Below, piece by piece: positions 7,147-11,353 of a stretch of 11,353 bases of DNA. This DNA comes from Dehalococcoidia bacterium. Lineage in GTDB: Bacteria; Chloroflexota; Dehalococcoidia; Dehalococcoidales; W693. The notes beneath the pieces are model-generated. The model saw only the letters and a program-made list of their open reading frames with translations, searched no databases and was not told the DNA's origin. The DNA lies in the NCBI GenBank assembly GCA_030627335.1, contig DAOUSH010000006.1, positions 1 through 11,353 of the forward strand. Direction: 5' to 3'. Within the stretch, counting starts at the first letter, position 1; the number at the start of each line of letters is the position of its first letter. A program made the translations under genes and the position numbers.

Positions 7147-8184
7147 TTGGGGGTAAAAAGGATAGACCGCATTATCTCTGGCAAGCCCGGTAATGAAGAC
7201 AAGCCGCTCGACAACAGCCTCCGGCCGCGGTGCATTGACGACTTCGTCGGGCAGACCAAGGTCAAGGAAAACATGAGCATAGCCATTGCCACCGCCAAAG
7301 GCAGGGGTGAGGCGCTAGACCATATCCTGCTCTACGGACCGCCCGGACTGGGCAAGACGACCCTGGCTTACATAATAGCCATCGAGATGGGGGTTAGCAT
7401 CAGGATTACCTCGGGACCGGCGATAGAGCGAACCGGCGACCTGGCAGCTATACTAACCAATCTTCATAGCAAGGATATCCTCTTTATTGATGAGATACAC
7501 CGTTTGAACCGGGCGGTCGAAGAGGTGCTTTATCCGGCAATGGAGGACAGGGCACTGGATATCGTTATCGGCAAGGGCCCCGGTGCCCGGATCCTGAGGC
7601 TAAGCCTGCCAGCTTTTACCCTTATCGGCGCTACCACGAGGTTTGCTCAACTAAGTTCGCCACTAAGAGACCGTTTCGGCGCTGTCTACCGCCTCGATTT
7701 CTACGACCAAAAATCAATAGAAGCGATACTTAAACGCTCTGCCGATATACTCAGGGTAGAAGCCGAAGCCGGTGGGCTTGGTGAGATTGCCTGCCGGGCT
7801 AGAGGGACGCCGAGGGTGTCCAACCGACTGCTAAAGCGAGTCCGGGACTATGCCCAGGTAGTATCAGACGGCATCGTTGACCATAAGGCGGCGCTTGAGG
7901 CGCTATCCATGCTTGAAATAGATCCTGTCGGGTTGGATGATATAGACCATAAGGTGCTGCATACCATTATCGAGAAATTCAATGGCGGCCCCGTCGGCTT
8001 GGATACAATCGCAGCTTCAATAAGCGAAGAGGCAGACACGATTATGGATGTCTATGAGCCCTATCTGCTACAACTGGGTTTTCTGGAGAGGACTCCTCGC
8101 GGCCGTGTGGCTACCCCCCTGGCATATAAACACCTGGGGCTTCCATGCAATAAAGAAAAACCACCCCAACCGACCCTGTGGTGA
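7147..8184 (+). CDS. ruvB: Holliday junction branch migration ATPase RuvB
   Basis: AAA+ motor that, with RuvA, drives branch migration of Holliday junctions in recombination and repair. It has 345 residues, the usual size. Walker [10 protein letters not shown] is at residues 64-72 and Walker B LFIDEIH at 112-118. The sensor/arginine-finger segment GATTRF...SSPLRDRFG and the C-terminal winged-helix domain with [18 protein letters not shown] are all present. The start is uncertain. An in-frame stop (7141-7143) precedes the TTG at 7147, but that TTG has no ribosome binding site at proper distance. The purine-rich GGGGGTAAAAAGG lies just after it, well placed for an ATA codon at 7162. That codon would give the family-typical N-terminus xDRIISGKP. 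No ATG, GTG or other TTG is available before the conserved region. queH follows after 13 nt, suggesting co-transcription. Confidence 0.97.
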
Positions 8185-8197
8185 CCTAAACTGGATT

Positions 8198-8746
8198 ATG
8201 AAGGCTGGCTCTGTTCTGGTTCATTGCTGTTGCGCTCACTGCACCGCCTATACCATTGAGCACTGGCGGCAGCAGGGATACGAGACAAGCGCCCTGTGGT
8301 ATAACCCCAATATTCACCCCTATATGGAGCACCAGAATCGCCTCGAGGCGATGCAATCACTGGCTAAAACATTAGGCTTTCAACTGATTGTAATCGAGGG
8401 CTATGACATTATAGACTACTTTCGGCGGGTGGTCGGCAATGAAACCCAGCGATGTCAGTATTGTTTCCATCTCCGCCTGTTAAAGACGGCTGAAAGCGCT
8501 ATTCGGATGGGCTATGATACTTTTACCACCAGCCTCCTCATCAGCCACCAGCAGAAGCACGACCTGTTGCAGGAGATTGGTAACAAAATAGCTCAGGAGA
8601 AGGGTGTAGGCTTCCTGTATGCTGATTTAAGGAAACGATACTCGGATAGCCGCCGTATCACCAAGTCCCTGAACCTCTATCGCCAGCAGTACTGCGGTTG
8701 CGTTTACAGCGAGTGGGAACGCTATGCCGACGTAAAGATAGAATAG
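8198..8746 (+). CDS. queH: Epoxyqueuosine reductase QueH
   Basis: Iron-sulfur enzyme of the DUF208/COG1636 family that reduces epoxyqueuosine to queuosine in tRNA, the last step of queuosine synthesis. It replaces the unrelated cobalamin enzyme QueG in many bacteria. The protein has 182 residues. Family cysteines are visible as HCCCAHC (Cys 10, 11, 12 and 15), RCQYC (Cys 86 and 89) and YCGC (Cys 166 and 168). Also present are the conserved WYNPNIHP segment and the TTSLLISHQQKHD region. I chose the ATG at 8198 because the homologous part begins there. The same frame stays open further upstream, but only inside the ruvB coding region. The start is 13 nt past the ruvB stop, with a weak GGTGA as possible ribosome binding site. 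It probably shares the ruvB promoter. The stop codon lies within a long hairpin. Confidence 0.95.
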   Translation: MKAGSVLVHCCCAHCTAYTIEHWRQQGYETSALWYNPNIHPYMEHQNRLEAMQSLAKTLGFQLIVIEGYDIIDYFRRVVGNETQRCQYCFHLRLLKTAESAIRMGYDTFTTSLLISHQQKHDLLQEIGNKIAQEKGVGFLYADLRKRYSDSRRITKSLNLYRQQYCGCVYSEWERYADVKIE

Positions 8747-8844: not shown

Positions 8845-8938
8845 TTGCTGTTGAGTCTGTTGTTTAACCTGTTCACAGTCCTGCAGTCGAAGTGATTCGC
8901 AGGTTTGTAGTCGGAGTTGCTGCTGGGTCTGTTGTTCA
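8845..8938 (+). repeat. Imperfect 22-nt direct repeat, 72 nt apart
   Basis: The copy at 8845-8866 and the copy at 8917-8938 match at 19 of 22 positions by hand. Both contain TTGCTG followed, after four bases, by GTCTGTTGTT. The offset is 72 nt, exactly 24 codons, so both copies read in the same frame (IAVESVV and VAAGSVV). The first copy ends in an in-frame TAA. This may be a decayed local duplication at the 5' end of the acetyltransferase fragment. Confidence 0.5.
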
Positions 8939-9158
8939 TAAGGTACGTGTCTCAAATACCATCGCCTGGGAGCTATACAGCAAGTATGGATTTATCGATA
9001 GAGGGCTGAGGCGAGGCTATTACTTGGACAACAGAGAGGGTGCCGTGATAATGACCATGGATGATATAAACCCGTCTTTATATCAGATAAGATTGAAACG
9101 GTTGAAGAAGGCCTATTCCGAGAAATGGGAGGCATCACCATATCGGATTGTGCGTTAG
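8892..9158 (+). pseudogene. RimI-like GNAT acetyltransferase fragment (C-terminal part only)
   Basis: The open frame from a GTG at 8892 gives 88 residues. Residues from about 14 on (SVVHKVRVSNTIAWELYSKYGFIDRGLRRGYYLDNREGAVIMT) match the C-terminal half of RimI-type N-acetyltransferases, with the family's VRVSN...ALY.KYGF and YY.DN.E.A.IM patterns. The N-terminal half, which includes the main acetyl-CoA loop of about 90 residues, is absent. Upstream the same frame continues only to an ATG at 8784 and is broken by TAA at 8865-8867. The intervening sequence shows no GNAT similarity that I can see. No ribosome binding site precedes the GTG. I read it as a 5'-deleted remnant. The 3' end is intact and its TAG overlaps the stop codon of the convergent tautomerase gene. 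Expression as a short protein cannot be excluded. Confidence 0.65.
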
Positions 9159-9340
9159 GTCTCCCGGGATGCCAGCTTATCACCGGTTGCCCAGTTATGC
9201 TTCGGGTTGTCCTTAAAGATGATGTGGACCTGGTCGCGCGAGATGCCGATTTTAACAAACTCATCGGTTATACCCTGCGCCAGCTGGCTCTTCTGCTCGA
9301 CGGTGCGTCCCTGCCACATCTCGATAATTACTACCGGCAT
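9155..9340 (-). CDS. 4-oxalocrotonate tautomerase-like protein
   Basis: Small enzyme of the tautomerase superfamily with 61 residues, matching the 60-65 of the 4-oxalocrotonate tautomerase subfamily, which usually assembles as hexamers. After removal of Met the N-terminal residue is the catalytic Pro1. Arg11 (GRTVEQK) is conserved and Trp49 sits where the classical enzyme has Phe50. The position of classical Arg39 is His38, so the substrate is probably not that of the aromatic meta-cleavage pathway; it is unknown. The start is secure: AGGAGG (plus-strand 9345-9350) lies 4 nt before the ATG. It lies 15 nt after the zinc-ribbon gene and is probably in one operon with it. Its stop codon overlaps that of the convergent acetyltransferase fragment. 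Confidence 0.9.
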   Translation of the reverse strand: MPVVIIEMWQGRTVEQKSQLAQGITDEFVKIGISRDQVHIIFKDNPKHNWATGDKLASRET

Positions 9341-9355
9341 AACGCCTCCTGATGA

Positions 9356-9574
9356 TTAGTCTCGCTTGAACTTTTTCTTCAGGGCTTCGATTTCCTGCAT
9401 CTTCTGCAAACCCTCGTCACTAAGCGGCTCGCAGCTTGTGAGTTCATTATTCTCCAGTATAATAACGAACAGCTCCCTGCATTTCCAGCAACGGTAAGGC
9501 CCCTGATAATCTGCTTCCAGCAAGGAGATAGTACCCTCGCTACTGCACTTGGGACACTTTATTTTAACCAGCAT
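9356..9574 (-). CDS. Small zinc-ribbon protein, function unknown
   Basis: A 72-residue protein with one four-cysteine zinc ribbon: CPKC (Cys 7 and 10) and CWKC (Cys 29 and 32), separated by 18 residues. A short beta-rich segment (LFVIILENNEL) follows, then a charged predicted helix (about residues 51-72, DEGLQKMQEIEALKKKFK). There is no signal peptide or membrane segment, so it should be cytoplasmic. A GAGAGG (plus-strand 9582-9587) 7 nt before the ATG supports the start. It follows the permease gene by 42 nt and precedes the tautomerase gene by 15 nt on the same strand. I do not recognise a named family. Zinc ribbons of this size bind nucleic acid or act as small protein partners. A Trm112-like role for the nearby methyltransferase is conceivable but unproven. 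Confidence 0.8.
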   Translation of the reverse strand: MLVKIKCPKCSSEGTISLLEADYQGPYRCWKCRELFVIILENNELTSCEPLSDEGLQKMQEIEALKKKFKRD

Positions 9575-9616: not shown

Positions 9617-10156
9617 CTAGGTAAGATTTATTTTGGAAAAGAATAGATTAGCCAGCAGCCCGGCTATTATCGGGAAGAAAAAGGTGCAGGCAAGGCGGAT
9701 GGCGGTGAACTTCCAGCCCATCAACCCCACCTCTAGCGGTATCCGGCTGAAAGCCCATAAAGACCAGCCGGTCATAAAGGCTACCATGGTGCCGATGCCG
9801 GCACCGGACTGCAGAAGCCCGGCGGCAATGGGCATGCTGACCATAGGACCTCCTGGGGTAATGCCGCCGGCGGCAGTGCCAATAATGATGCCCCGGAGAC
9901 CGGAATCGGCACCTACCCATTTGGCAACCATATCAACAGGGAGAATATGCTGTATAACACCGGCTATAATAAAGACGAAGATTAACATCGGCAAAACCTG
10001 GAGGAGTATGTTCCCGGCTGACTTCAAGCCCAGAATATGCTCTCCGCCACCTTTGTAATAGGCGACGATGAGCAGGGCAATGGCAATAACACCCATTATT
10101 ATCGTTGGGATAAGCATCTGCCGGAACCTCCTGTTTTTGCTTGTCTCGTTACTCAT
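9617..10156 (-). CDS. Half-size permease of the PF03773 (COG0701) type
   Basis: Predicted inner-membrane protein of 179 residues. Hydrophobic segments lie at about 15-33, 50-72, 88-117 (glycine-rich, containing GGITPGGP at 97-104), 121-137 and 152-174. The GGITPGGP motif, together with AFMTGWSLWAFSRIPLE, is typical of the predicted permease family that includes the organoarsenical exporter ArsP. Full-length members are about 300 residues with two related halves. This protein corresponds to one half, and no second half lies beside it, so it may work as a homodimer. The substrate cannot be told from the sequence. The start ATG has AAGG and GGAG upstream (minus-strand reading). It is preceded by a predicted promoter overlapped by a 16-bp palindrome, suggesting control by a repressor. 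Downstream genes for a zinc ribbon and a tautomerase may share the transcript. Confidence 0.85.
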   Translation of the reverse strand: MSNETSKNRRFRQMLIPTIIMGVIAIALLIVAYYKGGGEHILGLKSAGNILLQVLPMLIFVFIIAGVIQHILPVDMVAKWVGADSGLRGIIIGTAAGGITPGGPMVSMPIAAGLLQSGAGIGTMVAFMTGWSLWAFSRIPLEVGLMGWKFTAIRLACTFFFPIIAGLLANLFFSKINLT

Positions 10157-10228: not shown

Positions 10229-10885
10229 TTAACCGCTCTTTTTTAACAACAGACATATATTCCGAGAGAATAGTTTTACCGGGAAGTGGTAAGAGTTTTC
10301 GGGGAAGGATTTTATTACCTCAAAGCCAGCACTTCTTGCCAGTTTCTCCAGTTCGGCATAAGAAAAAAGATAGTAGTAGCGATACAGGGTCTTACCCTTT
10401 TTTCGCCAGGGCACAGAGACCTCCTTCGGCTTGAACCAGAACCGGGGTTGCCATCGGTTCCACACCGTGATGAAGGCTTCACTCCCAGGCTTTAAAACCC
10501 GCCTCAGTTCGTTTAATGCCTTTTGCCTTTCTGCCCTGCCTTCTATGTGATGGTAGGTAGCCACTGATACTGCCCAGTCAAAGGTTCCATTGGGGTAGGG
10601 CAGATGTCTGACATCAGCCAAAGATAGCGCTACCTCAAAGCTGTATTTCTGCGCATATCTCCGGGCGAGATTGAGCATCTCAGGGGAAAAGTCCACGCCA
10701 TAGAGCTCAAAGCTATGCCTGAAGGGGAAGAAGTCGGGCCCGTGGGCACAACCGAGGTTAAGCAGATTGCCATCTCGCCAGCGTCTGGCTAGTATCGTCA
10801 GCTCCCTGCCGAAGATAGAGCGGTGGCGGAAGCTGTACCAGCCAGGGGCTATCTGATTGAAGACGTCCTTTGAATCATCTGCCAT
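10229..10885 (-). CDS. Class I SAM methyltransferase, Trm9/ALKBH8-like
   Basis: A 218-residue cytoplasmic S-adenosylmethionine-dependent methyltransferase. The SAM-binding motif LLNLGCAHG is at residues 41-49 and the ribose-binding acidic residue is D65 (GVDFS). The AD pair is at 90-91, followed by FDWAVSVATYHH at 102-113. Beyond the generic fold it shows the pattern of the tRNA wobble methyltransferases Trm9 and ALKBH8. These features are VFNQIAPGWYSFRH near the N-terminus, then ALNELRRVLKPG..AFITVW, VPW..KG at 158-164 and YRYYYLF..AELE at 168-180. In eukaryotes those enzymes methylate 5-carboxymethyluridine at tRNA position 34, the product of Elp3. An elp3 gene starts divergently 104 nt away, which supports the link. 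An alternative is a small-molecule or quinone methyltransferase, since related folds abound. The ATG has no clear ribosome binding site. A perfect TATAAT lies only about 15 nt upstream, so the mRNA may be nearly leaderless. Confidence 0.9.
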   Translation of the reverse strand: MADDSKDVFNQIAPGWYSFRHRSIFGRELTILARRWRDGNLLNLGCAHGPDFFPFRHSFELYGVDFSPEMLNLARRYAQKYSFEVALSLADVRHLPYPNGTFDWAVSVATYHHIEGRAERQKALNELRRVLKPGSEAFITVWNRWQPRFWFKPKEVSVPWRKKGKTLYRYYYLFSYAELEKLARSAGFEVIKSFPENSYHFPVKLFSRNICLLLKKSG

Positions 10886-10899
10886 ATAAACCAGCCCGT

Positions 10900-10905
10900 A
10901 TTATA
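10900..10905 (-). promoter_or_regulatory. -10 box of the methyltransferase gene
   Basis: The minus strand reads TATAAT, a perfect -10, ending 14 nt before the methyltransferase ATG. Transcription would start near 10893, only about 8 nt before the start codon. No convincing -35 is visible at 16-18 nt. A short inverted repeat, GCTAA/TTAGC (10918-10932), lies between this box and the elp3 side. Confidence 0.5.
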
Positions 10906-10989
10906 GCCCAGCCATCCGCTAAGGGCTTTAGCTGGTGCTTAAACCTCAGACCTGCTAGACTAAATATAACCACTCGATAACAGTATACT

Positions 10990-11353
10990 ATGAAAAAATT
11001 CGCCAGGACAATATCCGGGGTTACCCCGGTAGCGGTAATGACACTGCCTATGAAGTGCCCGGGGCAGTGCATATACTGCCCAACATATGCCGCTACACCT
11101 CAGAGCTATACGCCGGAGTCACCAGCGGTACTGCGTGCCATCAAGTGCGACTACGATGCCCGCAAGCAGGTTGAACTGAGGCTAAAGATACTCTCAGAGA
11201 TGGGGCATCCGACCGACAAGGTGGAGCTGATAATAATGGGTGGCACCTTTCTCGCCTACCCTGTGGAGTATCAGTACCGGTTCGTCAAGGACTGCTTTGA
11301 CGCACTCAATGGCACCGGTTCAGCCGACCTGGAGGAAGCTCAGCATCTCAATG
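10990..11353 (+). CDS. elp3: Elp3-like radical SAM tRNA carboxymethyluridine synthase (3' cut by window)
   Basis: Elp3 uses a radical SAM cluster and acetyl-CoA to place a carboxymethyl-type group on C5 of uridine 34 in tRNA. The first 121 codons are visible and the gene runs off the window. The radical SAM motif CPGQCIYC (Cys 23, 27 and 30) has CX3CX2C spacing, followed by the Elp3-specific PTYAATPQSYTPESPAVLRA. Further on come GHPTDKVELIIMGGTF and DCFDALNG...LEEAQ. This is very similar to Dehalococcoides mccartyi Elp3, a single-protein bacterial version with a known structure. The ATG at 10990 follows an in-frame stop (10978-10980), so the start is well fixed. It lacks a Shine-Dalgarno sequence. 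A weak TAAATA (10961-10966) may be its -10. The acetyltransferase domain should lie beyond the window. A stable CCGGGG-TTA-CCCCGG hairpin occupies codons 9-14. Confidence 0.96.
   Translation, partial: MKKFARTISGVTPVAVMTLPMKCPGQCIYCPTYAATPQSYTPESPAVLRAIKCDYDARKQVELRLKILSEMGHPTDKVELIIMGGTFLAYPVEYQYRFVKDCFDALNGTGSADLEEAQHLN

Follow-up and report, generated by a model that had tools for sequence, protein, structure and literature searches.

What does a bacterial Elp3 work with, and what do the two enzymes make of the wobble uridine of tRNA? The question is raised by the right-hand end of a contig from a Dehalococcoidia bacterium (NCBI GenBank assembly GCA_030627335.1, contig DAOUSH010000006.1). 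The window, by which we mean the whole stretch of 11,353 nucleotides that was analysed, is the entire contig, ending at 11353, and belongs to a genome that is 74.5% complete (634,551 bases in 141 contigs). There, two genes start back to back. One encodes T1, a class I S-adenosylmethionine (SAM) methyltransferase of 218 amino acids (10229..10885, minus strand); the other is the 5' part of elp3 (121 amino acids; 10990..11352, plus strand), cut by the contig end. Between their start codons lies a divergent intergenic region of 104 bases (10886..10989). An earlier note on this DNA, made from the letters alone, suggested that the pair may make 5-methoxycarbonylmethyluridine at position 34 (mcm5U34). 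The answer we favour, with a probability of roughly 0.78, is that at the core of an Elp3-Trm9-like wobble pathway in this bacterium stand T1 and Elp3, giving mcm5U34, with MnmA as the thiolating enzyme, in place of MnmE-MnmG. The pair probably replaces the usual bacterial wobble modification by a route otherwise known only from eukaryotes and archaea.

The two genes are what the earlier note took them to be. T1 matches Pfam Methyltransf_11 at E 5.8e-19, which bears out its assignment to the class I methyltransferases, and its open reading frame (ORF) holds all the segments that had been singled out (IAPGWYSFRH, VSVATYHH, VPWRKKGK and YRYYYLFSYAELE). The elp3 fragment matches TIGR01211 at E 3.6e-42 over residues 2-121; truncation at the contig end keeps its score, 144.6 bits, under the full-length cut-off of 350. 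By eye, its cysteine cluster, CPGQCIYC, is the equivalent of CPGKCIYC in Dehalococcoides mccartyi Elp3 (5l7j), the segment with the radical SAM cysteines. The part that would encode the C-terminal acetyltransferase (KAT) domain is missing from the window, and relatives mostly cover the TIGR01211 model to its end. One near relative of the D. mccartyi protein, the elp3 product of genome G098, has 5l7j as its best match in the Protein Data Bank (PDB; 457 residues, 974 bits) and has T1 next door.

How faithfully does T1 accompany elp3? Among 245 evenly sampled genomes of the class, searched at E<=1e-15 for T1 and E<=1e-40 for Elp3, each was found in 39 genomes and both in 38. The odd ones out are at contig ends. 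In G210, T1 adjoins the elp3 start at a contig end; in G238, elp3 begins at a contig end and the T1 side is missing. Counting G210, T1 is present in 39 of the 40 elp3-carrying genomes of the class and in none of the 205 others. This co-occurrence had been set beforehand as a test and came out clearly in favour, with the rider that Fisher values overstate it, because adjacent genes can fall together into assembly gaps and the genomes are related. The arrangement itself recurs. In all 29 class-sample loci examined (from 29 of the 39 T1 genomes), and in 74 of the 80 named loci, elp3 stands head to head with T1; no other orientation was seen. In three of the remaining six (L075, L082 and L085) the methyltransferase lies where the contig breaks off, and in L135, L141 and L144 elp3 was not found within the stretch of locus examined. 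The best 80 of 174 loci confirmed in a scan of the collection come from organisms labelled Dehalococcoidia, Dehalococcoidales, Dehalococcoides, Chloroflexi or Chloroflexota, plus three metagenome-assembled genomes labelled Deltaproteobacteria (L082, L086 and L092), which are perhaps mislabelled Dehalococcoidia, or else a sign of transfer.

Seen as a protein, T1 resembles Trm9, and by more than chance. Its best PDB match by sequence is Yarrowia Trm9 (5cm2_Z, E 3.7e-14), at the top of 49 matches at E<=0.01, in an alignment that passes through VPW and YRYYYLF. Foldseek, given the AlphaFold2 model of T1 (predicted local distance difference test score, pLDDT, 86.7), also ranks Trm9 (5cm2) first; the two superpose with 26% identity and a root-mean-square deviation (rmsd) of 2.1 Å. 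When the C-terminal part of T1 is used alone as a profile, Trm9 5cm2 is the only significant PDB match. This part includes what looks like the lid of the enzyme, a two-stranded hairpin at residues 155-174 (10364..10423, minus strand), with model strands at 155-162 and 165-172. The hairpin carries VPW (158-160) and RYYYLF (169-174), the latter with counterparts of Trm9 R241 and Y243. Yeast Trm9 has a long insertion before RYY; T1 has none. Trm9 itself has been described as having a two-stranded lid that covers its active site (PMC5372719).

The same source reports that changes of R29, H115, R241, Y243 and N271 in yeast Trm9 hurt both tRNA affinity and kcat. T1 has Arg20 (codon 10826..10828, minus strand) at the place of R29, His112-His113 (10547..10552, minus strand) at the place of H115 and its neighbour, and Arg169 and Tyr171 in the lid. 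Arg20, His112, Arg169 and Tyr171 are invariant in all 35 distinct T1 proteins (60 rows reduced), as is His113, and the four have the same letters in Yarrowia Trm9 in three MAFFT alignments. Asn209 is just as invariant (35 of 35). It is one of four residues, R208 N209 I210 C211 (10253..10264, minus strand), that open the last strand and are all invariant in the 15-row alignment A1, and it is the likely counterpart of N271; MAFFT left it unpaired with Trm9, so that the match is by position only. N271 of yeast Trm9 likewise stands early in its last strand, and the link between yeast numbering and alignment positions depends on the yeast sequence assumed for it. The full residue set was seen in none of 12 background methyltransferases, of which 10 were hand-picked from plasmid matches and two came from T1's own genome.

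If this pair makes the wobble modification, what of the enzymes that usually do so? MnmG (E<=1e-40) was found in none of the 40 elp3 genomes of the class, against 57 of the 205 others, and in none of 28 elp3 genomes outside the class, against 24 of 42 others; combined, that is 0/68 versus 81/247. MnmE was sought in 80 chosen genomes. It passed the cut-off in none of 45 with elp3, in none of 17 with neither Elp3 nor MnmG, and in exactly the 18 MnmG-positive controls. Another 44 genomes have weaker MnmE matches, which span only about positions 174-384 of 446 and which we take to be GTPase paralogues. MnmA, on the other hand, is present in 43 of the 45 elp3 genomes, and went undetected in G294 and G481. 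With MnmE and MnmG missing and MnmA kept, it is the pathway to C5 that differs, while 2-thiolation stays. Genomes with neither Elp3 nor MnmG are common in the class sample (148 of 245); the 17 chosen ones, 10 of the class and seven of other classes, all keep MnmA.

A survey of elp3 neighbourhoods elsewhere in the Chloroflexota, which the earlier note had proposed as a check, turned up a second methyltransferase. Of 301 genomes sampled across the phylum, 52 have Elp3: 24 belong to the window's class and 28 to other classes. T1, at E<=1e-22, is confined to the 24. In 23 of the 28, a different methyltransferase, T2, lies within 3 kb of elp3 and by eye diverges from it. A search of whole genomes found T2 in 27 of the 28 (the exception is G414) and in none of 42 elp3-negative genomes. 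On four occasions the link with elp3 is not explained by adjacency, because the genes are on separate contigs (G330, G372 and G456) or about 0.64 Mb apart on the same one (G400). T2, too, has 5cm2 as its best PDB match (profile positions 25-224 of 244, E 3.5e-12), by a narrow margin of 49.4 bits over 47.0 for the next. Across 10 T2 rows it keeps counterparts of R29, H115 and R241, and has none of Y243 or N271.

The suggestion that Elp3 and T1 make mcm5U34 draws support from several sides: the active-site residues and the lid of T1, the fact that MnmE and MnmG went undetected in elp3 genomes, and T2, a second family like Trm9, beside elp3 in other classes. How would they do it? Elp3, with its radical SAM and acetyltransferase activities, would add a carboxymethyl group to C5 of U34 to give 5-carboxymethyluridine (cm5U34). 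T1 would then bind the anticodon loop beneath the lid hairpin, with Arg20, His112, Arg169, Tyr171 and probably Asn209 positioning the carboxylate, and transfer the methyl group of SAM to form the ester, mcm5U34. Where MnmA is active it would add the 2-thio group to yield mcm5s2U34; analogy points to the Lys, Glu and Gln tRNAs. The route would stand in for MnmE-MnmG, which were not found in these bacteria, and in at least some species T1 would work without a partner of the Trm112 family.

Of the other explanations, the one that survives best keeps T1 on the tRNA product of Elp3 and changes the outcome, to an ester on some other C5 side chain or to an intermediate in the amidation that leads to 5-carbamoylmethyluridine (ncm5U). 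The link to elp3 would look identical if the product were not mcm5U; ncm5U builds up in a yeast trm9 mutant, which points to a further step (PMC3110198); and two of T2's active-site positions differ from those of both T1 and Trm9. T1 itself, however, retains the lid and the residues with which yeast Trm9 probably holds cm5U34, and we judge a different product unlikely. Much less probable is that T1 methylates small molecules, in the manner of UbiE, and adjoins elp3 by chance. Generic Pfam and NCBIfam models do match T1, and its class I fold is common to many other methyltransferases, many small-molecule enzymes superposing on it as well as Trm9 does. Yet T1 reaches no curated NCBIfam cut-off, its best score, for UbiE, being 42.3 bits against a cut-off of 216. 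A chance neighbour would hardly be missing from all 205 elp3-negative genomes of the class, nor would a small-molecule enzyme be expected to share its lid and active-site residues with Trm9 rather than with the 12 background enzymes. On co-occurrence and residues we rejected this as the main explanation. Least probable, by a hair, is that T1 methylates another RNA position, such as another anticodon-loop base, or a translation factor together with Elp3, since the structural matches to METTL6, in rows that are nearly tied, have 13-15% identity and rmsd 3.0-3.6 Å against 26% and 2.1 Å for Trm9, and METTL6 is not among the T1 sequence matches at the thresholds used.

Two observations weigh against an Elp3-T1 pathway to mcm5U34. 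The first is that MnmG is also missing from 148 of the 205 elp3-negative class genomes, so its loss alone shows no replacement. The second concerns Trm112, which eukaryotic Trm9 requires. Of the 39 T1 genomes of the class, 25 have a match to the Trm112 family (PF03966, E 1e-3) and 14 have none, a departure from Trm9 with its Trm112. Five of the 14 (G013, G049, G068, G124 and G146) are single-contig genomes, 99% complete; nor was Trm112 detected in T1's own genome, at its 74.5% completeness.

Sequence trees give good support to each of three groups, T1, T2, and the pair formed by Yarrowia Trm9 and a haloarchaeal protein, but do not resolve how these relate. One tree unites T1 with Trm9, with the haloarchaeal protein and with a single long background row (83/72); after that row is left out, the union of T1 and Trm9 appears in 43% of bootstrap trees. 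None of three arrangements is rejected by the approximately unbiased test: T1 united with Trm9 and the haloarchaeal protein (p 0.309), the same group enlarged by T2 (0.101), and T1 among the background, apart from both T2 and Trm9 (0.196). Neither of the two other methyltransferases from its own genome groups with T1 in the trees. The functional case for T1 rests on residues, lid, neighbourhood and distribution. Plasmid searches outside the phylum gave 87 and 71 records with a match, and the rows inspected were generic methyltransferases except for one. This haloarchaeal protein, a methyltransferase on a plasmid of Natronorubrum bangense (L182:3518-4228), has the R, HH, W, R and Y of Trm9 and groups with the Yarrowia enzyme (97/92); no elp3 is annotated within the 8 kb inspected around it.

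How new would such a pathway be? Set beside eukaryotic Trm9/ALKBH8, T1 is alike in its best PDB match, its lid and its counterparts of R29, H115, R241 and Y243 (N271 by position), and would likewise act after Elp3; it differs in being bacterial, with 26% identity, and in having no AlkB or RRM domain in its ORF. The earlier note had called the pathway one normally described for eukaryotes, which is too narrow. An Elp3-Trm9 pair was proposed for the archaea Haloferax and Sulfolobus in 2008, the genes being clustered in Sulfolobus solfataricus (PMC2584109). According to a 2020 review, archaeal Elp3 carboxymethylates uridine in tRNA, and archaeal Trm9-Trm112 is credited with the reaction that forms mcm5U, with van Tran 2018 as its source (PMC7694415). 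What stands is the proposal of a bacterial occurrence, which our results support. The archaeal proposal resembles ours in pairing Elp3 with a Trm9 homologue and in its product, mcm5(s2)U34 (PMC2584109 and PMC5372719), but uses Tuc1 homologues for thiolation, whereas the elp3 bacteria here keep MnmA, without MnmE and MnmG. The MnmE-MnmG route of bacteria, leading to (c)mnm5U34, also modifies C5 of U34, with MnmA thiolating; its enzymes and side chain differ. As for Elp3 itself, specific tRNAs trigger acetyl-CoA hydrolysis by the Dehalococcoides protein; the excerpted text of that study names Trm9 for the yeast cascade and no partner methyltransferase for bacteria (PMC6367351). Our searches of the open-licence literature of PubMed Central gave no report of a bacterial Elp3-Trm9 pair.

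Should T1 and Elp3 make mcm5U34, bacterial Elp3, known from Dehalococcoides structures, would gain a partner and an end product, and MnmEG a natural replacement. Two general statements would need amending. Section 7.7 of the 2020 ribonucleoside catalogue lists for bacteria 5-carboxymethylaminomethyluridine (cmnm5U), 5-methylaminomethyluridine (mnm5U) and 5-aminomethyluridine (nm5U), and not cm5U or mcm5U (PMC7694415), and section 3 of a Trm112 review has no bacterial genes similar to Trm112-dependent methyltransferases (PMC5372719). A small and possibly Trm112-free Trm9 would also suit structural study of how cm5U34 is recognized. At even odds, we would go further: elp3-carrying Chloroflexota may have given up MnmE-MnmG for a hybrid route to mcm5(s2)U34 that joins archaeal or eukaryotic side-chain chemistry to MnmA thiolation, with T1 and T2, perhaps recruited separately, serving Elp3 in different classes, and T1 either free of Trm112 or provided with a new zinc-ribbon partner.

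The gene behind that last thought encodes a 72-residue zinc-ribbon protein (CPKC...CWKC) on the same strand as T1 (9359..9574, minus strand). In the named loci, where the genes mapped were T1, elp3, the zinc ribbon, a permease and three others from the window, it lies downstream of T1 on the same strand in 29 of 80; in the class-sample loci it is near T1 on the same strand in 12 of 29; the distance to T1 is at most 162 bases in 19 of the 29 and 11 of the 12 occurrences, respectively. To call it the partner of T1 is a guess from gene order. It has no Pfam family over cut-off. We tried it as a relative of Trm112 and rejected the idea: PF03966 was not among the Pfam matches of six members at E<=5, a level at which HMMER filters drop most weak matches, and Trm112 is not among the best 50 of 71 Foldseek matches of the zinc-ribbon model (pLDDT 77.7). 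Foldseek finds LysW weakly (E 0.58) and nothing at E 0.001.

Between T1 and the zinc ribbon sits a gene for an ArsP_1-type permease of 179 amino acids (9617-10156, minus strand; model positions 11-134 of 294), which has T1 nearby in 21 of the 80 named loci. Further along, the window carries a second tRNA wobble-modification gene, encoding the epoxyqueuosine reductase QueH (8048-8746, plus strand; PF02677, E 6e-53). Next to it, an ORF at 8892-9158 (plus strand) resembles by eye the C terminus of a RimI-type acetyltransferase and may be a remnant, and a short ORF at 9148-9343 (minus strand) resembles, again by eye, 4-oxalocrotonate tautomerase.
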